Origin: Chromatiales bacterium
GTDB taxonomy: Bacteria > Pseudomonadota > Gammaproteobacteria > Chromatiales > Chromatiaceae
Assembly: GCA_022360905.1 (NCBI GenBank)
Contig: JAKSBX010000194.1
Location: forward strand, 1 to 46,694
Direction: 5' to 3'
Length of the DNA: 46,694 bases
The notes beneath the pieces are model-generated. The model saw nothing but the letters and a program-made list of their open reading frames with translations, made no database searches and had not been told where the DNA came from. Shown here piece by piece: positions 1-38,632 of this stretch (its first letter is position 1; each line of letters begins with the position of its first letter). The position numbers and the translations under genes were made by a program.

Positions 1-119
1 AATAAATACATTTCATCTAGTTGAAAGCTATGCAGCACTTGATTTTGAAGAGTATAAGCCATGGCAGTGACTCACAATCAAAGACCCTTAATCTGTACAA
101 GGCAATATTAAACAGACCT

Positions 120-219
120 GAATGGTGCTTACTCAAACCCTATTTGGTGGGGCATGGCCCCACCCTACACCCTAAAATCATTGGTAGGGTGGGGCCATGC
201 CCCACCAAATACGCTTTGA
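120..219. repeat. Dispersed 100-bp palindromic repeat, copy 1
   Basis: The core is a pair of perfect 27-bp inverted arms, 142-168 and 184-210, each reading TGGTGGGGCATGGCCCCACC or its complement with a GTAGGG extension. The same 100-bp unit occurs at 38533-38632 and aligns without gaps with about 15 mismatches by hand count; the stem is nearly invariant and the spacer varies. Both copies start GAATGGTGCT and end CTTTGA. It would fold into a very stable hairpin in DNA or RNA. This is a REP-like or MITE-like intergenic element with no coding capacity. Confidence 0.85.
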
Positions 220-400
220 TTAAACACAATGAAGCCCTGAACACGACATACTTAGTCGCCGGGTTAATAGTAATAAGGTAAAACATCGCCATGATTATGA
301 AAAAAACACAGACGCACTGATTTTTTCCGGACAGCGGTGGGCATTCACCAGGATGCCCATAATGTTTTTTTCAGCCCAGACTTGCCAGCCCGATACACCA

Positions 401-427
401 TTTGCGTTAATTCGTGTTCATTGGCGG
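401..427. repeat. TTTGCGTTAATTCGTGTTC short repeat
   Basis: A short sequence resembling the TTTGCGG/GTGTTAA arms of the elements at 17690-17775 and 32330-32429. It lies just beyond the stop of the ankyrin gene and probably is a fragment of the same family. Confidence 0.4.
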
Positions 428-445
428 ACTGATTTTCCTTATCCA

Positions 446-1222
446 TTAGCGGCTAATCACACACTTCAACAGAACCGACATTTCTCGATTCTCCAGTTTG
501 CTGGCAAAATCGCAGGCATCCACCAACTGCTTATCCATTTTAAGATAGTCCGGTGCGACCATCGTCTGTTTCACATCAGCCCCATATTCGAGTAACTGCC
601 CAACCAAATCTTTGTTACCGGTATTGATGGCGTACATGAGCGGTGTCAGATCCTCATCACTGACCCGGTAGTTAACGTCCACACCATTCTCAAGCAACAG
701 CTTGACTGCCTCACGCTTCTCCTCACTGACCGCCTCTTGCAGAAGCGTCCTGCTGAACATGGTTGTCACATTCAGATCCAATCCTTGTTGAATCGCCTTT
801 TTCAGTTGTGCATCCCGATCCACAACGCCGGGTTCATACAGCACCAGCTGAAGTAGCTCTCCCTTCTCAACAGCACCTTTGTAAGCCTCACATCCGGACT
901 CGGAACCATAGTCACAGGCAAGCTTGGTATATTTGTAGGCTTCAACGATATCTTTTGTTTCTATGCCGAACTTGATCTCACCTTCAAAATAGGCAGAAGC
1001 CAGAACAAGGCAAAGCTCACCACTTTTCTCATCCACACAGTAGCTTTTCAGCTTCTCCCCGGCCTCTTTGTACTGTAGCTGCGAAACAAGTGCAGTAACC
1101 TCTCTCTGCCAACCGAAAGGCGTCCCTTCCGCCATCGCCAGGACAGGCAGAACAAACAACCCCATGAGTGGGAGAATCACTTGTTTGATGGTTTTTCTAT
1201 TCAAGCTGTAACCCTGTTGCAT
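446..1222 (-). CDS. Exported ankyrin-repeat protein
   Basis: A 258-residue protein with an N-terminal hydrophobic segment (about residues 15-30, ending in AMA) that looks like a Sec signal peptide. Residues about 45-120 form a helical, cysteine-containing stretch similar to Sel1/TPR repeats. Residues about 140-225 carry ankyrin repeats, with recognisable T-LLQEAV, AVKLLLENGVDVN and TPLMYAINTG-LV-LLEYGADV motifs. Ankyrin repeats bind proteins, so a periplasmic scaffold or anti-inhibitor role is plausible; no enzyme motif is visible. It is the last gene of the minus-strand set starting with the TorC-like cytochrome, 32 bp after the rhodanese-like gene, with an AGGTAA ribosome binding site 6 nt before ATG. 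Family assignment is solid, function unknown. Confidence 0.85.
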   Translation of the reverse strand: MQQGYSLNRKTIKQVILPLMGLFVLPVLAMAEGTPFGWQREVTALVSQLQYKEAGEKLKSYCVDEKSGELCLVLASAYFEGEIKFGIETKDIVEAYKYTKLACDYGSESGCEAYKGAVEKGELLQLVLYEPGVVDRDAQLKKAIQQGLDLNVTTMFSRTLLQEAVSEEKREAVKLLLENGVDVNYRVSDEDLTPLMYAINTGNKDLVGQLLEYGADVKQTMVAPDYLKMDKQLVDACDFASKLENREMSVLLKCVISR

Positions 1223-1254
1223 TTTGATTACCTATACATCTGAACTTAAAAAAC

Positions 1255-2163
1255 TTAACCGATCGGACCACCCATATCGTCGGTACTGTCATGCATCTCA
1301 CCACCCCAGTCTATCCACTCAACCAGGGAACCGTCATAGAGCCGGGCGTTCGGGTTTTGCAGAATCTGGTGTAGCACAAACCAACCCAATGCCGCCCAGA
1401 CACCGGTATCGCTGAATGCGGCAAGCGTACCGGTGGTCTGTATGTCATAGAGCTGAAACGCCTGCTGGAGTCTCTCCACAGGCAGAAACCGCCCGGTACT
1501 GTTATCCAGCAGACGCTCAGGCGGTATCCCTACACCATCGTAAATCGTGCCCCCTTCAACTACCTGTGGATCACGCTTATAGCCATCAAAATAGAGGCTG
1601 GGGCGGAAATCGATCACCGGTCTGTTGTTGTCCAGCAGATCCTCCACCCGATTGCTGTCGGCCAACAGACCGGGCTGCCAATTGATGGTGCACCGCTTCG
1701 GCTCAACGGATGAGATACCCTTTTGCAGATCATCAGTGGAGAGAGACTCGATACCCCCATCCAAAAGAGCCACCTGCTGAAAACCAGCCATCATCAGACT
1801 CCAGACAACACGCGATGCCTCTGCGATCCGTCTGGGTTCTCTGGCGGAACCGATGACAATCACAGACTCCTGACCCGCCAAGCCGAGACCGCCGAGCAGC
1901 GCTGCCAGTTTGCTCTCACCTGGCAGGTATCCGGGCAGGCCGTAACGTTCAACCTGCCAATCGAGTTCATTGAAGCCGGCCCATCGGGATTGCGGCCAAT
2001 GACCCGCCATGAATTCGGCACGGGATCTGACATCAAGCACAACAACTTCATCTCGGTTGTCGGAGAGCCAGGCTCCATTCACCAGAACCGGAAAAGAGGC
2101 CGACAAAAGATTCAATGGCCAGAGACATCCCAGCAGTGCCAGGATGCGTAACAGGGAATCCAT
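1255..2163 (-). CDS. Exported tandem rhodanese-like protein lacking the catalytic cysteine
   Basis: A 302-residue protein with a signal peptide (about residues 1-22) and two rhodanese folds. The first has VVLDVRSRAEF-GH at about 41-55 and ALLDGGIE at 132-139. The second has PVIDFRPSLYFDG at 182-194 and LYDGSLVEW at 275-283. Active thiosulfate or mercaptopyruvate sulfurtransferases carry a CxxGxxA loop in the second domain. Here the loop reads SDTGVWA, so Ser251 sits where the persulfide-forming Cys is expected. The first domain also has no cysteine in its loop (GSAREPRR). It is therefore probably not a sulfurtransferase but a binding or scaffold protein. Its ATG shares a base with the TGA of the ZnuA-like gene upstream (TGATG), which implies translational coupling. 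Confidence 0.85.
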   Translation of the reverse strand: MDSLLRILALLGCLWPLNLLSASFPVLVNGAWLSDNRDEVVVLDVRSRAEFMAGHWPQSRWAGFNELDWQVERYGLPGYLPGESKLAALLGGLGLAGQESVIVIGSAREPRRIAEASRVVWSLMMAGFQQVALLDGGIESLSTDDLQKGISSVEPKRCTINWQPGLLADSNRVEDLLDNNRPVIDFRPSLYFDGYKRDPQVVEGGTIYDGVGIPPERLLDNSTGRFLPVERLQQAFQLYDIQTTGTLAAFSDTGVWAALGWFVLHQILQNPNARLYDGSLVEWIDWGGEMHDSTDDMGGPIG

Positions 2164-3092
2164 CAGGAGCGAATCACACAGTCATTCAGTTTGGATGTCA
2201 GATTACCGAACCACTGAAAATAGCCCCCTGTGGTTTTCGGCATCTGACGACCGGCGGGATCCAGCACAACCCGGTTCAGACCGGCTTGATCCAGTACCAA
2301 CATGAGATGCTGATCGAATGGCTCTGTCGCCACCACACACTTTGCTCCTCTAGCCCGGGCTTTATCAACGATATCCTGCGCACTTCCACCGGCTGGAACC
2401 GTGTGCAGCTTATAGCGTTGCTCGAGGTACTGAAACTCATCCTGCAAAACCACAAACGGCTGACTGCTGGCTTCATGCAGAAGTTTGTTAACCCGGATAT
2501 CCAACTCCCATAGGGCCTGGATAATCTGATCTGAGTTACCCTGATAAGCCCAGTGGTTACGCTGGTCCAATCCCTGATAAACCATAGTGATCGCTTCCAG
2601 CGCGGCCATCGCGTTCAATGGGTCGAGCCAGTACATGGTATCGATCGAGCCTTCAGGCCGAATCGTCTGCACCATGCCATAGCCCTTGCCCAGCGACTCC
2701 ATGTGCGGATCTTCATCTTCATTCGGCCCCTTCCAGTCTGCCGGTGTCCGCTTGGCCAGCTGATGCACACCAGCTGCATCGATCAGTGAAACAGCGGCCT
2801 GATCGGATGCTTCTAGCTGCTTGGCAAGCATAGGCTCCAGTGTTGCACCACTCCAGAAGAGTACAGTAAGACCGGTGGGGATATTCCAATCCCCACTCTG
2901 GTCCCGCTCTGCCAACACAACCTCCACCGGACTGCCCCAGGCCAGGGCAGATGCCAGCGTGAACATGGGCGGTTGGGTAACCCCCACGCGAAAACTCTTT
3001 TGCGATGTCTGTTCGCCGTCGACTTCAGCGGCAACCAGTGGCGTCATTACGCCCAGGCAGAGTGCAATGACTGTTACGATGAATTTAGCCAT
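2163..3092 (-). CDS. ZnuA/TroA-like periplasmic binding protein without metal ligands
   Basis: A 309-residue secreted protein with the layout of cluster A-I (ZnuA/TroA) metal-binding proteins: signal peptide to about residue 22, FRVGVTQPP strand, the LTVLFWSGATLEPML segment, a YWLDPLNAMAALEAI helix (about 154-168) and VVLQDEFQYLEQRY (about 214-227). In zinc or manganese binders the last two segments carry histidine ligands (HxWLSP and HDAYGY). Here the positions are Tyr/Met and Gln217, and the usual first-domain His is also missing. No ABC permease or ATPase gene is near. I infer a repurposed binding fold that works with the adjacent cytochromes, not a metal importer. The start at 3092 is chosen for the AGGAGG site 5 nt upstream; an upstream in-frame ATG has none. 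The gene lies 23 bp after the IalB-like gene. Confidence 0.7.
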   Translation of the reverse strand: MAKFIVTVIALCLGVMTPLVAAEVDGEQTSQKSFRVGVTQPPMFTLASALAWGSPVEVVLAERDQSGDWNIPTGLTVLFWSGATLEPMLAKQLEASDQAAVSLIDAAGVHQLAKRTPADWKGPNEDEDPHMESLGKGYGMVQTIRPEGSIDTMYWLDPLNAMAALEAITMVYQGLDQRNHWAYQGNSDQIIQALWELDIRVNKLLHEASSQPFVVLQDEFQYLEQRYKLHTVPAGGSAQDIVDKARARGAKCVVATEPFDQHLMLVLDQAGLNRVVLDPAGRQMPKTTGGYFQWFGNLTSKLNDCVIRS

Positions 3093-3115
3093 AACGCCTC
3101 CTATCCCATGCATGC

Positions 3116-3691
3116 CTATTCAGCACTCGTAGACTGACTGTTTTTAGCCAATTGACCTTTCACCTTGCTCAGCAGCGCTTGATAGGGTCCCAACTCAGCC
3201 AAGGTGAGATGGCGCACCCCACTGTGAGAATTGAAGGTCACGACGATCTTATGGCCCTGCTCCATCTCCTCAAGGATTTTCGCAGCGATATCGGGAGAGA
3301 TCATCAGATTGTTGCCTTTCGGTGCCGTGATCTTATGGCGACTCTGTTTATCGATACCGATAGTAACCGTTGTCCCGGCTTTGAAACCCTGATAGGTAGC
3401 AACCACAAAACCGACCGAATCGGGTGTCCATGCAGGCCCCACCTGGATAAAATTCTTGGCTTGCCACTCACCGAACTGTTCGATATGAAACATACGGCAG
3501 TAGACCTTGCTCTGCTCCATCTCATCACAGGTCGCCTTCCAGGTTCCCGCCCGCTCTTCGAACAGGTGATCCCGTTTCATCGGCATCGGTTGCTCCTGCA
3601 TGCCGTTTTCATCGGCCGCTTTGGCCAACGCAGGCCCGACACCGAATCCAATCATCGAGAGTAACAGAGCCGTTACAACAGGCTTATTCAT
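3116..3691 (-). CDS. IalB-like exported protein
   Basis: A 191-residue protein with a signal peptide (hydrophobic residues about 5-22, ending ALAKAA). The middle part, with GTWKATCDEMEQSKVYCRMFH, two cysteines about 11 residues apart and a later VGFVVATYQGF-AGTTVTIGID strand pattern, resembles the invasion-associated locus B (IalB) family of small periplasmic proteins. Family function is poorly defined. The ATG overlaps the TGA of the TorC-like gene by one base, and GGAGG lies 7 nt upstream, so it is translationally coupled to the cytochrome. It may help maturation or docking of the cytochrome complex; this is inference from context only. Confidence 0.6.
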   Translation of the reverse strand: MNKPVVTALLLSMIGFGVGPALAKAADENGMQEQPMPMKRDHLFEERAGTWKATCDEMEQSKVYCRMFHIEQFGEWQAKNFIQVGPAWTPDSVGFVVATYQGFKAGTTVTIGIDKQSRHKITAPKGNNLMISPDIAAKILEEMEQGHKIVVTFNSHSGVRHLTLAELGPYQALLSKVKGQLAKNSQSTSAE

Positions 3692-4809
3692 CAATCCGCC
3701 TCCGAATCGTTACGTGCACCACGCAGCACCCAGTTACTGACCAATTGTAACTGCTCCTGACTCAACTTGGTGTAACGGCGCATCTCCTTCAGGTTATTAC
3801 TCCAATCAAACATAATCCACTTATCACGCGGATAGGTTTTATGACACAAGTTACAGTCGAGTTCATAGAGAGCAGTCACATACTCCCAGTAGCGCTCCTC
3901 ACTGGGTCCAACTGCGGTACGAGGAACCCAGCCGGTGAGTTTGATCCGATTCCAGGTCAACTCATACTCAGGCTCTAGCTTGCTTTCGATCTTCTCTACC
4001 TTATCCATGCCGTCAAAACTCATCTTCGCCAGTGCGACAGCCCGATTGAAGTCAATGAAGATCTGACTACCCTCTTCCCTGTCCCAGCCTTCGCTTGAGA
4101 CCTGAACCCACTCTCCCTCTTGTTTAACAACCGTCAATGGCGTACCACCATACAGCGTTGCCAGAGGATCATCGCCACCCGGAGTTGCAGTCAATGCCAC
4201 CTCATGGGGTAGCACCACCGCTTGATCCGAGAGTTGAGCACTCAGTGCTTCGGCCAGATATTCACTCTCCATCTCACCATAGAGTTTCTCCATGTTCGGC
4301 AACTTATGGGCAATGCCTTTATGGCAGTTGATGCAGGTCTGCTCACCACTCAACAGCTTTTTGTGCATCTTTTGCGCCAATGAAGTCTGCTTTTCAGTCA
4401 GCATGGTTTCATTGGTATGGCAGTTGCGGCACTCACGGGAGTCACTCTGCTGCATGGTCGTCCAGACATTTTGCGCCAGCTGCAAACGGTGCGCTTCAAA
4501 CTTCTCCGCTGTATCGATGGTACCCAGCGCCCAATGGTAGAGCTCTTTCGTCGCCTGGATTTTACGCACCAGTTTTGCACCCCAGGATTTCGGCACATGG
4601 CAGTCTGAACAGATCGCCGGAACCCCCGAGGGATTATGCGCATGAGCCGACTGCTCATACTCTCCCTGCACAACATTCATCTCGTGGCAGGAAATACAGA
4701 ATTCGTAACTGTTTGTATATTCCATGAAGGTGTTGAATCCACCCCAAAGAATAATGCCGGCAAAGATACCAACACCCAGCGTCAACCAACTGAAAGCACT
4801 CTTATTCAT
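3691..4809 (-). CDS. TorC-type pentaheme membrane-anchored cytochrome c (quinol dehydrogenase)
   Basis: A 372-residue protein with one N-terminal membrane anchor (about residues 8-28) and five CxxCH heme sites. Four form a NapC/NirT-type domain (near residues 38, 67, 127 and 159) and the fifth, CNLCH, is near residue 319. The tetraheme NapC domain plus C-terminal monoheme domain is the TorC/TorY/DorC architecture, which takes electrons from menaquinol or ubiquinol and passes them to a periplasmic terminal reductase. Between the domains lies an SH3-like stretch (LYGGTPLTVVKQEGEWVQV), also seen in TorC proteins. No TorA-type molybdoenzyme is nearby; the natural partner is the dodecaheme cytochrome just upstream. 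A GTG three bases before the chosen ATG is an alternative start. First gene of a five-gene coupled set. Confidence 0.9.
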   Translation of the reverse strand: MNKSAFSWLTLGVGIFAGIILWGGFNTFMEYTNSYEFCISCHEMNVVQGEYEQSAHAHNPSGVPAICSDCHVPKSWGAKLVRKIQATKELYHWALGTIDTAEKFEAHRLQLAQNVWTTMQQSDSRECRNCHTNETMLTEKQTSLAQKMHKKLLSGEQTCINCHKGIAHKLPNMEKLYGEMESEYLAEALSAQLSDQAVVLPHEVALTATPGGDDPLATLYGGTPLTVVKQEGEWVQVSSEGWDREEGSQIFIDFNRAVALAKMSFDGMDKVEKIESKLEPEYELTWNRIKLTGWVPRTAVGPSEERYWEYVTALYELDCNLCHKTYPRDKWIMFDWSNNLKEMRRYTKLSQEQLQLVSNWVLRGARNDSEAD

Positions 4810-4950
4810 CACATTTCTACCAATTAGTTCCGCCTATCAACCTATATTCAAGACCTGTTTCTGAGCACACCCAAAGAGCTGAAAAGCGTGCAGCTTCACT
4901 AACCAGCACCAGCATCGATGATGATCATAATGCTCAAAACAAGGGGGGAG

Positions 4951-4983
4951 GAAAAAGTGGAGCCAGCCCAGAGGACTGGCTCC
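4951..4983 (-). terminator. Rho-independent terminator of the dodecaheme cytochrome gene
   Basis: On the minus strand an 8-bp stem (GGAGCCAG paired with CTGGCTCC, 4959-4983) is followed by ACTTTTTC. It lies 38 bp after the stop of the dodecaheme gene, so that gene can be expressed at a different level from the TorC-like operon downstream. Confidence 0.8.
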
Positions 4984-5021
4984 ATCCAGTCAGGTGGTAA
5001 TCACCTGTCTACTACGCGCCC

Positions 5022-7373
5022 TTATTTCTTCTGGGCAGCAATCGCTTTCAGCGCTTTCTTCATGAACTGCTGGTGCTCGAAGCTATCCATAACGCCAGGT
5101 TCGGATACCTTCTGCCAGAAGTCAGGATTGAAACGCTCTTCGTGACAACCGAGGCAGACACCGGTCTTCTCGATGGCGTCACGCTTCTCGTCTGGCAACG
5201 GACCAGTCAGCGGCCAGTGAGAACCTACGGAGCTCAGTTGCTCGCCATCCTCAGTAACAATCGCAGACCAGTCGTAGGTCAGGCCGGGGATACCGGGGAT
5301 CTGAACCTGGGTCTTCTGAGGAATGATCTTACCGGTAGCGGAGTCCTTCAGATCCAGCACGAAGTCCTTGTCGGCACCCAACAGGAAGCGACCGCCTTCA
5401 ACACCGTAACCCAATGCCTTTGGATTGTCGTGACAGGACTCACAGCTACGGGCACTACGGCCAGCGGTGTGGGGCTGTACGGCAGCGGTATCGATACCGG
5501 GACCTTCAGGAGTTTCCCAGATCTTGTTGTTGACCAGAGTCTTGCCGTCTTTGTCGATAACCGTGGTGGTTACCTGACAACCGGGCATCATCGGGCTGAC
5601 ACGACCTTCGCCGTTGATACCGAGCACCGGAGTCTCCCAACGCAGATAGGAGCGGGTCTCCATGACTTTACCCGGGCTCTTCATGCCGTTGGTGCCGGGA
5701 GGTGCATCAGGGGTCAGGCCGGTCTTGGGATCACGATTACTGGCGTTAACCAGCCAGTCGGTACCCTCATTGCCTTTCGAGTAGTCAACTGTGACGTGAC
5801 AACCGTAGCACTGCGGAACCCAGTCGGCATGACAAGCGTAGCACTCCATGTTGTTCTGATGCTGCGGGATCAGGAACATGGATACTTTCGCCAGAGTCGA
5901 CTTGAAGGTGCCTTCGTCGCCGATCTGTTTCAACAGAGGTACTCTGAAGTCCAGACCGTTGGCGGAGTGAACGATAACTTCCTTACCCTTCTTCACCACA
6001 TTACCCAATGGGTTGCCGCGAGCTGTCAGCAGGTAACCATCTTCAGGTTCGTACTGTGTCGCATCTTTCATGTACTCGGGCCACTTCTTACCGAGACCAC
6101 GAGGCTTGGTGTAGGCGGTCGGCAGACCGTCTTTCATCTCACCAAACTCTTCGCCGCGACCCAGCGGCAGATCCCAAGGTAGTTTGTTGAAGGTGCCGTG
6201 GCAGTCTTCACACTCGACCTCGACCTGAGCCAGGGTGGTACCCGGGATATTGCCATCACCATGCAGATCGATGGTGGTATGACAGTCCTGACAGAGCATG
6301 CCGCCCTGCGGATTACCGGCAATCGAGTTCATCTCATGATGCAGGTCTTCCTTGATGAACAGGTAACGCTTGGTGTGCATCTTAGGCTGCTTCTTACCCT
6401 TTTCATTAAAGGGGGAACCGTAAGGTGCTTCCATGATGCCCTGATAGCTCACGCCGACACGCTTACCGCGGTTGTGACAGGAGACACAGGTTTCAACAGG
6501 AATACCGGAGAACTCAACTTCACCGACCTTAACCTTGGTCTTACGGGTGCCCTGCATACGGTGAGTCAGGATGTGGCCCGCTTCGTCCTTCTTGATGGTT
6601 GGATCACCACCTTCGTAGTAACCATCATTGGAGTAAGGCACGTGACAGGCGGAACAGCCGGAACCGCGGTAGTCACCACGCTTATCGCGACCGGTTACAC
6701 CAACATGACAACGCTGACAGTCGTGACGGGAGTAGGTCAAACCCGCATGGTTGGGATTGTCGGTCAGCTTCTCCAGATCAACCTGTGGCAGCTGCTTCAA
6801 ACGCTTCGGCATCTGATCCGGATGCTTCTTGACGAAGTCCTTCATGTACTTCTTGTAGGCCTTGGTACCAACCAGAGGCACGGGACCGTCGTCGTCCATC
6901 ACATCATAGTTGCCCCAGACAACTTTCATGTCTTTCTGGTAACCCCATGACCACATGTTACCCTGCAGTTTACCTGCCTCAGTATTCATCAGGGATTTAT
7001 TCAGGCGGTCATAGTATCCAGAGTGGCACTGGCCACAGGCTTGGTCGTTAACTGGCATGGCGCCAGGATCGGGTAGGAAGTTTTTAGGTCCACCCTTTTT
7101 CGCTAGTCCGGCGGGGGAGCCCATGTGGGCTTTCATTTTATCTTTTTCTTCTTTCGGGTTACCGCCATGACAGACCACACAGCCGGCCGGGTCACCCAAT
7201 TCCGCACCCATCTTTTCAATGTCTTCCTGCATGACACCATCACTAAACCGTTCTATACCGTCGTGACAGGCCAAACAGGCTTTGCCTTGGGCTTCAGCTA
7301 CAGGGAGCAGCGTATTGCCTCCGCTACCCCAAGCAACCAACGCCACCACTGCAAGTAGTGCTAGGCGTTTCAT
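5022..7373 (-). CDS. Periplasmic dodecaheme cytochrome c of unknown substrate
   Basis: A 783-residue protein with a Sec signal peptide (cleavage likely near VAEA-QG, residue 28) and twelve CxxCH motifs at about residues 33, 65, 113, 219, 240, 296, 361, 388, 511, 522, 644 and 740. No variant heme motif such as CxxCK was seen. One additional cysteine, Cys599 in MMPGCQV, is not in a heme motif. Two long heme-free stretches (about 393-510 and 527-643) could hold a substrate pocket or a beta domain. I do not recognise it as octaheme tetrathionate reductase, hydroxylamine oxidoreductase, NrfA or MccA by motif. The GGGAGT site 7 nt before ATG supports the start. Transcribed before, and separated by a terminator from, a TorC-type quinol dehydrogenase operon. 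A periplasmic reductase or electron-storage role is inference. Confidence 0.9.
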   Translation of the reverse strand: MKRLALLAVVALVAWGSGGNTLLPVAEAQGKACLACHDGIERFSDGVMQEDIEKMGAELGDPAGCVVCHGGNPKEEKDKMKAHMGSPAGLAKKGGPKNFLPDPGAMPVNDQACGQCHSGYYDRLNKSLMNTEAGKLQGNMWSWGYQKDMKVVWGNYDVMDDDGPVPLVGTKAYKKYMKDFVKKHPDQMPKRLKQLPQVDLEKLTDNPNHAGLTYSRHDCQRCHVGVTGRDKRGDYRGSGCSACHVPYSNDGYYEGGDPTIKKDEAGHILTHRMQGTRKTKVKVGEVEFSGIPVETCVSCHNRGKRVGVSYQGIMEAPYGSPFNEKGKKQPKMHTKRYLFIKEDLHHEMNSIAGNPQGGMLCQDCHTTIDLHGDGNIPGTTLAQVEVECEDCHGTFNKLPWDLPLGRGEEFGEMKDGLPTAYTKPRGLGKKWPEYMKDATQYEPEDGYLLTARGNPLGNVVKKGKEVIVHSANGLDFRVPLLKQIGDEGTFKSTLAKVSMFLIPQHQNNMECYACHADWVPQCYGCHVTVDYSKGNEGTDWLVNASNRDPKTGLTPDAPPGTNGMKSPGKVMETRSYLRWETPVLGINGEGRVSPMMPGCQVTTTVIDKDGKTLVNNKIWETPEGPGIDTAAVQPHTAGRSARSCESCHDNPKALGYGVEGGRFLLGADKDFVLDLKDSATGKIIPQKTQVQIPGIPGLTYDWSAIVTEDGEQLSSVGSHWPLTGPLPDEKRDAIEKTGVCLGCHEERFNPDFWQKVSEPGVMDSFEHQQFMKKALKAIAAQKK

Positions 7374-7978
7374 TATCAGACTCCCATAGTTTGGTTAAAA
7401 AACGCATCCGACCAGTGGAAGCGACGGACACGGGCATCTACTCCATCAATTTTTGTTACTGGGCATCGCCCTCCCCTGCAATGCACATGCGCTTGGCGCA
7501 CACATCAGAATCGCAAGATCTATACCAAAGCCCGTAGCTGAGATTCGGGGTGAAACAAATGCCGCTTCAGGTAACGGTTGAGCTTGCAGGAAAAGGTAGA
7601 TAAACCGGGACTTTCAGAGGGTTATATGGAAATACCCAATTGTAATTAGATTGAGTTACTCACAAAGGGAAGGACAAGAGATGGGCAAGCCGGGATTCCA
7701 ACCTATTGAACGAATCGTTCAATCAACTTCCTGCCAGGTGAATAAACCGTTCCACCCCGATAAATACCAAGAAAAACGGTAAGTTATAAAACACCACATT
7801 TTTTACCTTGAAATAGCTTTAGCAGCCGATCCCGATATACGGGCCACCACTCTATTTCACACGATGGAGCGCTAATACCCGCCACTTTGACAGGGCAACT
7901 TCAACAACGCCTGCCCAGAGTTGTCTTGATCCCCCTAGTGGCCAACGAGTGCCATTGGACTCAATGTGACCCGATGCT
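7374..7978. other. Intergenic control region between dodecaheme cytochrome and lon
   Basis: The divergent spacer of over 800 bp between the two genes holds no credible gene. An open frame at 7887-8213 overlaps the lon promoter and start and looks like a shadow. No clear FNR box was seen in front of the cytochrome gene. The only striking element is the palindrome at 7705-7723. Confidence 0.6.
7705..7723. promoter_or_regulatory. Perfect 19-bp palindrome, candidate operator
   Basis: ATTGAACGA and TCGTTCAAT are perfect inverted 9-bp arms around a single A. The shape resembles operators of TetR-family repressors. It lies about 330 bp upstream of the dodecaheme cytochrome start and about 490 bp before lon, so the target gene is not obvious. 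Confidence 0.4.
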
Positions 7979-8006
7979 CTTGCAACTGATCGAAGCGCCC
8001 CCATAT
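7979..8006 (+). promoter_or_regulatory. Sigma-32 type heat-shock promoter of lon
   Basis: CTTGCAA, a 13-nt spacer, and CCCCATAT match the RpoH consensus (CTTGAAA, 13-15 nt, CCCCATNT) with a single mismatch in the upstream box. It faces lon, with an untranslated leader of about 200 nt. lon is a classical RpoH target in gammaproteobacteria. Confidence 0.75.
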
Positions 8007-8209
8007 CTCACTGATAAACAAACGACCCCAAACCGGATTCCAGCTGATACATACAGCAGATTGAGACTTTGTCCGATTGTTTATGCAAAATGGGGCCAAG
8101 CGATCCGCATGAAACAGGCAAAATCGACTGCTCAGAGTCGACTCGAAAGACTCTGTTTGGAATTGTTCCTGTCAGATCAAACAGAGAGTAAGCAGAAACG
8201 GAAGGTAGC

Positions 8210-10594
8210 ATGATGTCAGAAGAAGAATACAACCAAGAAGAGACTGTCGAAGTCATCAGCGGCAATACCTTAGCCCGCCCCAGTGAGGTGTTACCAGGCC
8301 TGATCCACCTCCTGCCGGTCTCCGCACGCCCCTTCTTTCCTGGTCAGGCGGTACCGCTGCTAATGGAGCAGGAGCATTGGGATTCCACCATGGAGGAGGT
8401 AGCCAACTCATCGCATATGCTACTCGGTGTCGTACTCTCTTCGGCGGAGAGTGCCGAGTCTGCCACCCCGCAGAGTTTCAAACAGATCGGAACCGTCTGT
8501 CGGGTTCACCGGATTCAGCGATCAGAAGGCAGACTGCAGGTCCTGGTGGAGTGCCTGCAACGGTTTCGTATCGAAAAGGTGGTGCATGGGGATGTGCCAT
8601 TCACCGCCAGCGTAGAGTATCTCCCGGAACCCTCCAGTGACAGCAAAGAGATCAAACCCTATGCGGTGGCGATCATCAATACCATCAAAGAACTGCTGCC
8701 GCTCAATCCGCTTTATGCCGAGGAGCTTCGCATGTTCCTCGACCGGTTTGGTCCGGACGATCCCTCACATCTGACCGATTTCGCCGCCAGCCTGACCACT
8801 TCAGATAAATTTCAACTGCAGGCGGTACTGGAAACCGTCGAGCTACTGCCGCGTATGGAGAAAGTCCTTGAGTTGCTGCATCGCGAACTCGAGGTGGTCA
8901 AGGCTCAGGCCTCAATCCGCAAAACCGTGGAAGAGCGGATGGAGAAACAGCAGCGTGATTTCCTGTTGAGGGAGCAGCTGAAGGCGATACAACAGGAACT
9001 GGGCATTGAAAAGGACGACCGTACCGCGGAGCTGGATAAGTTCAAGGAGCGCCTGGAGAAACTGACACTCTCCGAGCAGGCCCAGGCAAGAGTCGATGAG
9101 GAGATGGGTAAACTGTCGGTGCTCGAACCGGGCTCGCCGGAATACTCGGTCACCAGAAACTATCTGGACTGGATCACCCTGCTCCCCTGGGGTATCGATT
9201 CGGAAGACAAGCTCGATCTGCAATTTGCCCGTAAAACGCTGGATAAGGACCATTATGGGTTGGAGGATGTCAAAGAGCGTATTCTGGAATTTCTGGCGCT
9301 TGGCATCATGAAAGGCCAGATTGCCGGATCGATCATCCTGCTGGTAGGTCCTCCCGGAGTAGGTAAGACCTCAATCGGCCACTCCATCGCGGAAGCCCTG
9401 GGCCGAAAATTCTACCGCTTCTCTGTTGGTGGTATTCGAGATGAGGCCGAAATCAAGGGCCATCGGCGTACCTACATCGGCGCGATGCCGGGGAAATTCA
9501 TCCAGGCAATGAAAGATGCCGGCACTGAAAACCCGGTGATCATGCTTGATGAGATCGATAAGATCGGCGCATCCTACCATGGCGATCCCGCCTCAGCCCT
9601 GCTCGAGGTACTCGACCCGGAGCAGAACAGCGACTTTCTCGATCACTATCTTGATCTGCGCTTCGATCTGTCGAAAGTTCTGTTCATCTGTACGGCCAAT
9701 CAACTCGACACCATTCCACGCCCGCTGCTCGACCGCATGGAGACCATCTCCCTGTCGGGCTATATCGCCAGTGAGAAGTTACAGATTGCGCGTAAATACC
9801 TGGTGCCGCGTCAACTCGACAGGGCCGGCCTGAAACGTCGAGATATAAAACTCAACAGTCCGGTACTGCGAGCCATCATCGAAGGTTATGCCCGGGATGC
9901 GGGGGTTCGCAGACTGGAGAAACAGATCGGCAAGATTGTACGCAAGGCGGTAGTAAAAATTCTCGAGGGGGTAAAAAAGCCCATCGACATCACCCTCGAC
10001 AATCTCCAGGACTATCTGGGCGGCCCACTGTTCAAAGATGAAAGAAACCTGAGCGGTGCCGGTGTTGTGACCGGGCTTGCCTGGACCGCCATGGGCGGTG
10101 CGACGCTGAACATCGAGGCGGTCGCCACACATGAATTCAACCGGGGATTCAAACTCACCGGACAGCTGGGCGACGTGATGCGCGAATCGGCTGAAATCGC
10201 CTATAGCTACATCGTCAGCCACGCAGAAGCATTCGAGGTGGATCAAAGCTTCTTTCAAAAAGCCTTTATCCATCTTCATGTACCAGCGGGCGCCACACCA
10301 AAGGATGGCCCCTCTGCGGGCATCACGATGGCTTCAGCACTGCTTTCACTGGCGAAAAACAGACCGGTGCGTAACATTGCCATGACCGGTGAACTCACCC
10401 TGACCGGACAGGTTTTCCCGGTCGGCGGTATCCGTGAAAAGGTGATTGCCGCAAGACGTGCCGGAATCAGAGAACTGATCCTGCCGGAGGACAATCGCAG
10501 CGACTATGAAGAGGTGCCGGATCATATCCGGAAAGGACTCAAGGTCCACTTCGCTTCAGTTTATGAAGACGTGGTCCCACTGCTCTTCCGCTGA
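8210..10594 (+). CDS. lon: ATP-dependent Lon protease
   Basis: A 794-residue cytosolic AAA+ serine protease that unfolds and degrades damaged and regulatory proteins. The N-terminal LON substrate-binding domain spans about residues 28-215, followed by a coiled-coil linker (about 215-300). The AAA+ module carries Walker A GPPGVGKT (about 379-386) and Walker B VIMLDEIDKIG. The C-terminal protease domain has the Ser-Lys dyad in DGPSAGITMA and GGIREKVIAARR. Length is typical of LonA. The two adjacent ATG codons at 8210 and 8213 are both usable after GGAAGG. A strong RpoH-like promoter lies upstream. Flanked by the dodecaheme cytochrome on one side and a small membrane protein on the other. Confidence 0.97.
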   Translation: MMSEEEYNQEETVEVISGNTLARPSEVLPGLIHLLPVSARPFFPGQAVPLLMEQEHWDSTMEEVANSSHMLLGVVLSSAESAESATPQSFKQIGTVCRVHRIQRSEGRLQVLVECLQRFRIEKVVHGDVPFTASVEYLPEPSSDSKEIKPYAVAIINTIKELLPLNPLYAEELRMFLDRFGPDDPSHLTDFAASLTTSDKFQLQAVLETVELLPRMEKVLELLHRELEVVKAQASIRKTVEERMEKQQRDFLLREQLKAIQQELGIEKDDRTAELDKFKERLEKLTLSEQAQARVDEEMGKLSVLEPGSPEYSVTRNYLDWITLLPWGIDSEDKLDLQFARKTLDKDHYGLEDVKERILEFLALGIMKGQIAGSIILLVGPPGVGKTSIGHSIAEALGRKFYRFSVGGIRDEAEIKGHRRTYIGAMPGKFIQAMKDAGTENPVIMLDEIDKIGASYHGDPASALLEVLDPEQNSDFLDHYLDLRFDLSKVLFICTANQLDTIPRPLLDRMETISLSGYIASEKLQIARKYLVPRQLDRAGLKRRDIKLNSPVLRAIIEGYARDAGVRRLEKQIGKIVRKAVVKILEGVKKPIDITLDNLQDYLGGPLFKDERNLSGAGVVTGLAWTAMGGATLNIEAVATHEFNRGFKLTGQLGDVMRESAEIAYSYIVSHAEAFEVDQSFFQKAFIHLHVPAGATPKDGPSAGITMASALLSLAKNRPVRNIAMTGELTLTGQVFPVGGIREKVIAARRAGIRELILPEDNRSDYEEVPDHIRKGLKVHFASVYEDVVPLLFR

Positions 10595-11361: not shown

Positions 11362-12567
11362 GTGACGACCTTGAGCATCATTCCATTGGGTGACCCTAGC
11401 ACCCCTGACTCCCCACCCAAGGGTTATGCCCTTTTTGCTCTTGGTTTTCGACCGTTCTTCCTGCTCGCAGCATTCTCCGGGCTGACATTGATGCTGCTCT
11501 GGCTCTGGTTTTGGCTGAGCCCGACACAGTTTAGCCACTACTCGCTGATCGGCTGGCACAGCCATGAGATGCTGTTTGGATTCAGCCTGGCGATTGTTGC
11601 CGGGTTTCTGCTCACCGCCGTACGAAACTGGACCGGTATCGATACCCCGACCGGCATGCCGTTGGCCCTGTTGGCCGGACTCTGGTTTGCCGGCCGGTTA
11701 TTGCCACTCATGCCAAGCAGCCTGATCGGCTTGTTTGTGCTGATCGATCTGCTTTTCCTGCCCGCACTGATTGCAGCCCTGAGCCCTCCACTGGTGAAAG
11801 CGGAGAATCGAGTCAACCGACTCTTTATTCCCCTGCTGGCGGCGATGGCTATCGCCAATCTTCTCTACCACCTTGAAGCCATGGGCCTTCTGGCGACAAG
11901 CCGAAGCGGTATCTCACTGATGACCAACTCGATCCTGCTGCTGTTGATATTCGTCGGCGGCCGGGTGCTCCCCTTTTTCACCGACAAAGCGGTTGCAGAC
12001 TCCGCTCCCCGTTTCAGCAAGCAGCGGGAGCAGGCCGTTTACGCCCTGTTTCTTCTCTGGGCGCTAAGCGATCTGCTGCTGCCGAACAGCTGGCCAGGTG
12101 CGCTGTTTGCGCTCGGGGTCGCCATTACTCAGGCCTGGCGTCTCTACGACTGGCACCACCCCCAGATATGGAACAAACCGATATTGTGGGTGCTCTTCGC
12201 TGGCTTGACCTGGATGGTGATCGGTTTTCTGCTGAAAGCCATGGCCCAGATCGATCTCTTTGCGGACAACCTGGCCACCCACGCACTCACCGCCGGTGCC
12301 ATCGGTGTTACCACCCTGGGCATGATGGCCAGGGTGGCTCTGGGTCATACCGGCCGGGAGATTGGCGCCAACAGATATATGGTCCTGGCATTCATACTGA
12401 TCAACATCGCCGTAGTGATCCGAGTGTTCGTACCGGTCACCGGACTACTCAGCTACCAGACCTGTATAACACTCTCAGCAGTGGCCTGGTCCATCTGCTA
12501 TCTGCTGTTCTCAATGATCTACCTACCGATACTGATCCGCCCCCGTATTGACGGCCGACCAGGATAG
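11362..12567 (+). CDS. nnrS: NnrS family heme-copper membrane protein
   Basis: A 401-residue protein with about 12 membrane helices filling nearly its whole length. Family hallmarks are visible: GYALFALGFRPFFLLAA near residue 21, GWHSHEMLFGF near 64, GGRVLPFFT near 199 and THALTAGAIGVTTLGMMARVALGHTGR near 304. NnrS proteins bind heme and copper, are induced by NO and protect cells during nitrosative stress or denitrification, lowering iron-NO damage. The start is a GTG without a strong ribosome binding site; a TTG three codons later is an alternative. The FNR/DNR palindrome upstream agrees with NO or anaerobic induction. No nitrite or nitric oxide reductase genes are in the window. Confidence 0.93.
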   Translation: MTTLSIIPLGDPSTPDSPPKGYALFALGFRPFFLLAAFSGLTLMLLWLWFWLSPTQFSHYSLIGWHSHEMLFGFSLAIVAGFLLTAVRNWTGIDTPTGMPLALLAGLWFAGRLLPLMPSSLIGLFVLIDLLFLPALIAALSPPLVKAENRVNRLFIPLLAAMAIANLLYHLEAMGLLATSRSGISLMTNSILLLLIFVGGRVLPFFTDKAVADSAPRFSKQREQAVYALFLLWALSDLLLPNSWPGALFALGVAITQAWRLYDWHHPQIWNKPILWVLFAGLTWMVIGFLLKAMAQIDLFADNLATHALTAGAIGVTTLGMMARVALGHTGREIGANRYMVLAFILINIAVVIRVFVPVTGLLSYQTCITLSAVAWSICYLLFSMIYLPILIRPRIDGRPG

Positions 12568-13159: not shown

Positions 13160-13906
13160 TCAGAAGAACAGCAGCTTGATGATAAAAGCTGACAAGGCCA
13201 AGTAGAGCACCCGGCGAATCAGCGCCTCCCCATGAGTGATAGTGGTGTGAGCGCCCAACCAACCACCGATTGAATTGCCGATTGCCAGACCGATTCCAAC
13301 CCACCACATCAGCTCCAGATTGGAAGCGAAGATCCCCAGGGCGACAATGGTATAGACCAACACGATCAGTACCTTGTGCATATTCACCCGAACCAGATCG
13401 AGCCCCAGCACCTTGTGCAGTATCGGCATCAGGATAAAACCGACACCGATCTGGATAAATCCTCCCCAGAATCCGGCAGCGACCATCAGCAGATGGCCGG
13501 CAAATAGATTTTTAGCCTTGCCATCACCGCCTGTCGGCTTGATTTTATCGTGGCCGGTTGCCATCAGTATCATCACGCCGACCATCACCAGTGCCAGGAT
13601 TCGATCAAACCAGACCCCTTCGAGCTTCACCCCAAGCGATGCACCACCAATTGCCCCCACAGAGGCGGCAGCGGCAAGACTCAGCCCCAATTTGAAATCG
13701 GAATAGCCACGACGCCTGAAGGCGGTCACTGCGGTGATATTCTGCGCCAGTATCGCGATTCGGTTGGTGCCGTTTGCCACCGGTCCCGGTATCCCCATAA
13801 ACAGCATCACCGGTACAGTCAGTAGCGAACCACCTCCAGCCATCACATTCAGCCAGCCGGCCGCAACACCGACCAAGGCAAGCAGCAGAATCTGCCAGAT
13901 CTCCAC
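13160..13906 (-). CDS. TSUP (TauE/SafE) family permease
   Basis: A 248-residue inner membrane protein with about eight hydrophobic helices in two homologous halves. Family signatures are WLNVMAGGGSLLTVPVML near residue 18 and GFWGGFIQIGVGFILMPIL near residue 145. TSUP members export sulfite, sulfoacetate or related sulfur anions and organosulfonates. In a sulfur oxidiser a sulfite or thiosulfate exchange role is likely, but substrate cannot be read from sequence. The start codon is GTG at 13906 with GGGGGG 5 nt upstream. It sits next to the sulfur globule gene in convergent orientation and behind an FNR-like half-matched box. Confidence 0.88.
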   Translation of the reverse strand: MEIWQILLLALVGVAAGWLNVMAGGGSLLTVPVMLFMGIPGPVANGTNRIAILAQNITAVTAFRRRGYSDFKLGLSLAAAASVGAIGGASLGVKLEGVWFDRILALVMVGVMILMATGHDKIKPTGGDGKAKNLFAGHLLMVAAGFWGGFIQIGVGFILMPILHKVLGLDLVRVNMHKVLIVLVYTIVALGIFASNLELMWWVGIGLAIGNSIGGWLGAHTTITHGEALIRRVLYLALSAFIIKLLFF

Positions 13907-38532: not shown

Positions 38533-38632
38533 GAATGGTGCTGACTTAACCGTTATCTGGTGGGGCATGGCCCCACCCTACACGCTGAATTCAACTGTAG
38601 GGTGGGGCCATGCCCCACCGAAAACCCTTTGA
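38533..38632. repeat. Dispersed 100-bp palindromic repeat, copy 2
   Basis: Second copy of the unit at 120-219, with arms GGTGGGGCATGGCCCCACCC (38559-38578) and the complement at 38599-38618. It lies in the murJ-ribF spacer, where transcripts from murJ would form a strong hairpin. Confidence 0.85.

Follow-up and report, generated by a model that had tools for sequence, protein, structure and literature searches.

The closest named relative of the dodecaheme protein reported here comes from Geobacter, in which the extHIJKLMNOPQS cluster encodes ExtM (GSU2935), a cytochrome with 12 hemes. According to excerpts of the relevant study, selenite reduction is impaired by the loss of the porin ExtI and, in preliminary data for which the genes are not named, by knocking out ext cytochrome genes that lie downstream of extI; its authors favour a role for ExtI as a selenite-selective channel (PMC5877670). 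Excerpts of other papers mention homologues of ExtM in cable bacteria (PMC11976967) and describe TorC-type proteins as quinol oxidisers that supply reductases (PMC11727998). The stretch of DNA analysed here, referred to in full as the window (46,694 nucleotides, positions 1 to 46,694 of contig JAKSBX010000194.1, from the Chromatiales bacterium assembly GCA_022360905.1), contains, between positions 446 and 7373, a run of six minus-strand genes that encode exported proteins. The lead gene encodes a multiheme cytochrome (MHC) with 12 CXXCH motifs, and the second a TorC-like quinol dehydrogenase with five. On sequence grounds, the MHC is one member of a large family with distant kinship to ExtM of the Geobacter ext selenite/tellurite cluster, a point that amends an earlier note on this DNA, which called the locus uncharacterised. 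The pairing of the MHC with TorC is well supported by comparative genomics. That electrons pass from quinol through TorC to the MHC, acting as terminal reductase of a small oxyanion, is judged to have about an even chance of being correct; the direction of electron flow, the contact between the two proteins, the catalysis and the substrate are inferred.

All counts for the host genus refer to Candidatus Thiodiazotropha, sulfur-oxidising symbionts of lucinids, of which the window is taken to be a member. The MHC is present in nine of 22 genomes of this genus, including that of the window. Full-length TorC, defined by a match reaching residue 364 or beyond, is found in exactly these nine and in none of the 13 genomes lacking the MHC, in which only the N-terminal, NapC-like part of TorC is matched. 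By contrast, a dimethyl sulfoxide (DMSO)-reductase-like protein, also termed DmsA-like, is encoded by 21 of the 22 genomes, including 12 of the 13 without MHC. This implies that TorC tracks the MHC, and the donation of electrons to the DMSO-reductase-like protein was rejected as the main role of TorC. In Ca. T. endoloripes, strong expression of a DMSO-reductase-like gene has been reported (PMC6872982, excerpts).

The earlier note had placed the gene set at 446-7373, and all six open reading frames were recovered there on the minus strand. Together with a hairpin between the first two genes, in order of transcription, they are:
5022..7373, minus strand: MHC, 783 amino acids, 12 CXXCH motifs; exported dodecaheme c-type cytochrome related to ExtM, with an invariant lone Cys599
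4958..4984, minus strand: terminator-like hairpin with T run (12 pairs, loop of 3), between MHC and TorC
3691..4812, minus strand: TorC-like pentaheme quinol dehydrogenase, 373 amino acids, five CXXCH motifs; NapC/NirT domain and C-terminal fifth heme
3116..3694, minus strand: IalB-like exported protein in which two Cys are conserved; translation probably starts at the ATG at 3691
2163..3113, minus strand: ZnuA-like exported protein lacking two aligned, presumed metal-binding His residues
1255..2163, minus strand: tandem rhodanese exported protein resembling 3-mercaptopyruvate sulfurtransferase (MST), lacking the presumed catalytic Cys (FSDTG)
446..1222, minus strand: exported ankyrin-repeat protein with a weak Sel1 match; six Cys kept in 10/10 homologue rows

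The order MHC-TorC-IalB-ZnuA-rhodanese-ankyrin is intact in all seven complete loci of the genus (the window and the set L020-L025), which argues against a chance arrangement. An eighth locus, spread over two contigs, is consistent with the same six-gene order, and a ninth reads MHC-TorC before its contig ends. The lon gene adjoins the MHC in five genomes (the window, L020-L022 and L026) and is missing from the stretches L023-L025, hence the unit occupies at least two genomic places.

A tree was computed for 47 MHCs, selected by length and spread among 86 MHC-like sequences from 85 loci. Except for L094, its TorC-linked members group in a single clade with moderate support (91/85). With a further locus, L202, added to give 48 rows, a branch with an SH-aLRT value of 82 has all seven TorC-linked rows to one side, and TorC linkage amounts to a single change of label, which none of 500 shuffles matched. 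These TorC-linked MHCs span more than one class: MHC-TorC-IalB is collinear at L202, in a genome of another class, and a Magnetovibrio metagenome-assembled genome (L042) carries MHC-TorC plus IalB and rhodanese. Linkage to IalB is seen in four lineages (the Thiodiazotropha loci, L040, L042 and L202), and to rhodanese in Thiodiazotropha and L042. The exception, L094 from Photobacterium, has a 4-heme NapC-type protein encoded by a divergent gene and sits on a long branch; its placement is unsure. The proposal of a dedicated quinol-to-periplasm pair is supported by the presence of both genes in 9/9 against 0/13 genomes and by the position of the TorC-linked MHCs in the tree.

The distal part of the cluster appears operon-like, given two TGATG junctions, between TorC and IalB at about 3691 and between ZnuA and rhodanese at 2163, and a gap of 2 nucleotides between IalB and ZnuA; the earlier note had three genes joined by such overlapping codons. 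No sigma-70-like promoter was detected in positions 1-8300 (0 against 6.4 in shuffles), and as the window begins at base 1 of the contig, the sequence beyond the ankyrin gene is cut off. Judged by eye, all six proteins have hydrophobic N-termini that resemble signal peptides or anchors. Hairpins equivalent to that at 4958..4984 are present in all nine tested loci with TorC downstream of the MHC and in two of nine hand-picked control loci, counts that leave out L062 (hairpin, TorC upstream) and L094 (no hairpin, TorC divergent). One pair of the stem varies, being T-G in the window, T-A in L036 and C-G in L037. It is possible that this element acts as a partial terminator or a 3' processing point, and it may raise the abundance of the MHC.

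The MHC is under strong constraint. In six within-genus pairs (NG86 estimates for the window against L036, L037, L021, L038, L039 and L025, with L042 and saturated pairs not used), the ratio of nonsynonymous to synonymous substitution rates (dN/dS) of the MHC is 0.011-0.040 and in every pair lies below the values of all five partners. Values for the partners are 0.069-0.084 (TorC), 0.040-0.090 (IalB), 0.070-0.088 (ZnuA-like), 0.077-0.104 (ankyrin) and 0.121-0.155 (rhodanese). In the three pairs that include Lon, the MHC (0.011-0.018) lies below Lon (0.027-0.031), and NnrS reaches 0.130-0.184; against L042, the MHC value is 0.110. Across 47 sequences, 214 of 783 MHC columns are invariant, 178 of them outside the Cys and His of the heme motifs, and all 12 CXXCH motifs are invariant. 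The densest 30-residue block of invariant positions is 571-600 (22/30), which is heme-free and includes the lone Cys599. Ten His residues outside CXXCH are invariant (83, 271, 333, 345, 346, 371, 505, 635, 719 and 767), while His469 is kept in 46/47 and His184 in 43/47 MHCs. With ten such residues for 12 hemes, a universally conserved distal His is available to at most ten; one heme would be ligated by His and Met, while His/Cys ligation of another and an open site at one may also occur. A bolder and rather doubtful extension is that the MHC defines a class of multiheme terminal reductases of its own. In this view the dodecaheme would be fed by TorC and have its substrate site around Cys599 and the heme-free, nearly invariant segment 571-600; one or more of its hemes would be of the His/Met type, and one or more would lack a conserved distal ligand. 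The TorC-MHC-IalB unit, spread through marine Proteobacteria, would be the equivalent of TorCA respiration without molybdenum.

A scan of GTDB contigs confirmed 286 relatives of the MHC, of which the best 80 were used for neighbourhood analysis. Neighbour counts refer to 76 of these (L040-L115), searched in six frames with hidden Markov models, single members of the neighbour families being identified by Pfam; L036-L039, which are of the same genus and all have TorC, were excluded. Within 6 kb of the MHC, a Rap1a-like small protein is encoded in 43/76 and a tetratricopeptide repeat protein in 27/76 loci, together 70/76 and never both. Nearby genes also include a Crp/Fnr-type gene (33/76), ccmI (30/76), ccmF (28/76), a Porin_5-type gene (4/76; L066 and L096-L098), IalB (2/76), rhodanese (1/76) and ankyrin (1/76). 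Matches to the MHC at E<=0.001 were obtained in 38 of 369 genomes of an evenly drawn sample of the window's class (20 over 450 bits) and in 16 of 398 of a like sample of its phylum (6 over 450 bits), both samples including the window's genome and some matches being cut by contig ends. In the whole sample of relatives, 14 of 56 genomes match at the same threshold, some weakly or in part. Carriers of the MHC gene that can be cultured include Roseibium aggregatum, Shimia abyssi and Photobacterium frigidiphilum, the last with the NapC-type gene adjacent to it. No match was found on plasmids or in PHROGs, the PDB held no convincing relative by sequence or profile (best E 0.04 and 0.57), and Pfam recognises no substrate domain in the MHC. 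Membership of the OTR, NrfA-type or MtrC/OmcA families was rejected on scores far below their cut-offs, that for the OTR model TIGR04315 being 14.7 bits against 375. The family consists of widespread, strictly conserved 12-heme proteins, with no solved relative or tested function found in the searches made. Separately, multiheme proteins of about 1250-1500 amino acids in several genomes (among them G039, G043, G146, G200 and G596) are weakly MHC-like around profile positions 340-390.

The TorC-like protein of the window matches NapC/NirT in Pfam at 4e-68 and covers positions 21-379 of the 387 in TIGR02162, with both the NapC/NirT domain and the fifth C-terminal heme present, at a score of 286.4 bits that is below the cut-off of 478.2 (the L042 homologue scores 381). 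No other full-length TorC was found in the draft genome. The IalB-like protein likewise scores below the cut-off of PF06776 (13.7 bits, E 0.07), and its L042 homologue reaches 22.6 bits against a gathering cut-off of 22.1. Matches to ZnuA (1e-22), rhodanese (8e-10) and ankyrin (6e-13) models from Pfam and NCBIfam identify the remaining window proteins. In the ZnuA-like protein, two His of 2o1e, which we take to be metal ligands, align with Met and Gln, the region of the first His lying outside the alignment; among its homologues the former position is Met or Leu in 9/9 rows, and the Gln motif is found in 7/9, the other two rows, from one genome, being unmatched by the pattern. In the rhodanese-like protein, Ser aligns with the Cys of MST and rhodanese chains, presumably the catalytic residue of the second rhodanese domain, and FSDTG is kept in the window and in 10/10 homologue rows from six genomes. 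In the L042 copy the sole Cys is residue 23, which probably belongs to the signal peptide. The earlier view that the partners had lost their active residues is hence upheld for these two proteins, which supports non-catalytic roles for them.

The absence of a known terminal reductase, as previously claimed, applies to the locus, where OTR is missing, and fails for the genome, in which two OTR-family octahemes over the cut-off lie on other contigs. NapA, NarG and the DmsA-like protein are encoded as well (eight of 11 PF00384 matches were typed), and neither TorA nor a TIGR03152 (NrfA-type) match over the cut-off was found in this draft, which is 93% complete. The same genome contains further modules of related composition: NapC/NirT proteins occur beside an exported ankyrin protein (L159), beside a protein with eight heme motifs (L160) and inside a 934-amino-acid open frame with further heme motifs (L158). 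The stretches L161/L162 contain a DmsA-like operon with a 5-heme cytochrome, in which no DmsC-like gene was recognised, and a PhsA-like gene set with a 551-amino-acid protein of 12 heme-like motifs.

Around the cluster itself, an NnrS-family gene (11362-12567, plus strand) and a TauE/SafE-family gene (13160-13906, minus strand) lie upstream; L094 also has a TauE gene, about 5 kb from its MHC. At positions 17104-21539 of L036, after the ankyrin gene and on the opposite strand, are genes for cytochrome c', a TlpA-like protein, a DUF302 protein, a cytochrome c and a b561 protein that has three CXXCH motifs; a small unknown gene accompanies them on the other strand. The greater part of this set, DUF302 excepted, is near the MHC of L040 in a different order, and a cytochrome c' gene is found within 10 kb in L036, L037, L040 and L042 and not in L038 or L039. 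A palindromic repeat, each arm of which carries the core GTAGGGTGGGGCCATGCCCCACC, occurs at 113-239 and 38559-38619 of the window; these two palindromes account for four core matches, against 0 in shuffles.

Linkage, co-occurrence and what is known of TorC function (PMC11727998, excerpts) suggest a path from quinol through TorC to the MHC, and the locus would form a respiratory branch of the periplasm that is complete in itself. TorC, anchored in the inner membrane, would oxidise quinol via its four NapC-type hemes and relay the electrons via the fifth, C-terminal heme to the MHC, a soluble protein with 12 hemes. The MHC would substitute for TorA and most likely reduce a small oxyanion itself, whether of selenite/tellurite type or of sulfur or nitrogen; the kinship with ExtM and the selenite phenotype of the ext cluster favour an oxyanion reductase. 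The hairpin after the MHC gene could allow the cytochrome to exceed TorC and the accessory proteins in amount, and the products of the four genes that follow TorC may be non-catalytic chaperones, docking proteins or handlers of substrate or product.

Several results weigh against this scheme. The MHC scores 225.8 bits against the ExtM model NF040943, far below the curated cut-off of 800. TorC is near the MHC in only 5/76 loci, or 9/80 with L036-L039 included, and in one (L202) of 21 further neighbourhoods, some of them on contigs also among the best 80; the MHC family as a whole therefore does not depend on TorC. Unlinking of the MHC from the TorC-like set in most relatives had been named as grounds for abandoning the idea; it is observed for the family at large and does not extend to the subclade, in which all seven rows are linked. 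Support for that clade is moderate, and the co-occurrence counts ignore phylogeny. Against L040, dN/dS is lower for TorC (0.036) than for the MHC (0.051), though dS is saturated at 4.2. The AlphaFold models of the whole MHC and of residues 436-660 are weak (mean pLDDT 63.9 and 55.9), and Foldseek and VIA searches with the former gave no matches, which leaves an open heme without structural support. Among the open-access literature matches listed, no title or start of an abstract concerns a TorC-dodecaheme pair and no expression or biochemical data on it were found, nor do the excerpts of PMC6461927 contain anything on the pair. Finally, the OTR-family, NapA, NarG and DmsA-like proteins encoded elsewhere in the genome could themselves be the terminal enzymes.

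This last point underlies the strongest rival, a possible though distinctly less probable one, in which the MHC is an electron hub or capacitor, loaded by TorC and supplying periplasmic reductases such as the OTR-family octahemes, NapA or the DmsA-like protein with its adjacent 5-heme cytochrome. The presence of these enzymes on other contigs, the lack of a recognised substrate domain and a hairpin that could signify a carrier made in excess all fit such a role; yet none of the reductases is linked to the MHC, and the DmsA-like gene is as good as ubiquitous in the genus genomes without it. Furthermore, fast evolution has been reported for multiheme cytochromes in Geobacter and Shewanella (PMC12977616, excerpts), but the dN/dS of the MHC is below that of Lon in 3/3 pairs. 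It is improbable that the flow is reversed, with the MHC oxidising a reduced sulfur or other compound and TorC delivering the electrons to the quinone pool. The sulfur oxidation of the host genus (PMC6872982, excerpts) and the TlpA-like, DUF302 and c-type cytochrome proteins near the cluster in L036-L037 would suit this, as would, weakly, the NapC/NirT proteins of lithotrophs, although the activity reported for one of them, ImoA of an Fe(II) oxidiser, is quinol oxidation (PMC9600427, excerpts). The described function of TorC-type proteins (PMC11727998, excerpts) runs in the opposite direction, and the frequency of Crp/Fnr-type genes near the MHC fits low-oxygen respiration; the one tested (L060) is nearest the FixK and FnrL models, below their cut-offs. 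Least likely of all, and very improbable, is a role of the MHC as periplasmic bridge to an outer-membrane porin in a conduit for extracellular electron transfer. Besides the four Porin_5-type loci above, such genes were found in five of the 21 later neighbourhoods (L164 being the same contig as L097, and Pfam having been applied to L097 only), and the ext cluster includes the porin ExtI; however, TorC-linked loci gave no porin match, and a selenite-selective channel is the role preferred by the authors for ExtI (PMC5877670, excerpts).

The TorC-wired subclade provides a concrete candidate electron donor, which makes the question of its substrate testable, and suggests that TorC can be used without a molybdoenzyme. 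In the TorC system of trimethylamine N-oxide respiration, the NapC/NirT tetraheme part and the C-terminal fifth heme are shared with the window protein over nearly the whole length, but the partner is the molybdoenzyme TorA, whereas the neighbour here is a dodecaheme protein. OTR and the MHC have in common that they are multiheme c-type proteins, with a score of 14.7 bits only. MST shares the tandem rhodanese fold by sequence, the window protein having Ser in place of the catalytic Cys. ExtM and the MHC each have 12 hemes, over 599 model positions and 783 amino acids respectively. Two ExtM-type proteins (L148 and L149, about 615 amino acids; 315 and 294 bits, below the ExtM cut-off) have all 12 CXXCH motifs in register with the MHC and keep the PGCQ motif of Cys599, but in them Met129 is replaced by His, His346 by Tyr and His469 by Ala, and a His is found one column away from His719. 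On the quinol side, the window has TorC where the ext cluster has cytochrome b and Rieske genes. None of the extI, extK, extL or extN-Q neighbours is among the six genes of the window; a rhodanese-like protein is present in both clusters and is the only correspondence, a weak one (29.8 bits against the ExtH cut-off of 200), with the L042 rhodanese-like copy matching ExtH at 4e-13, again below the cut-off.

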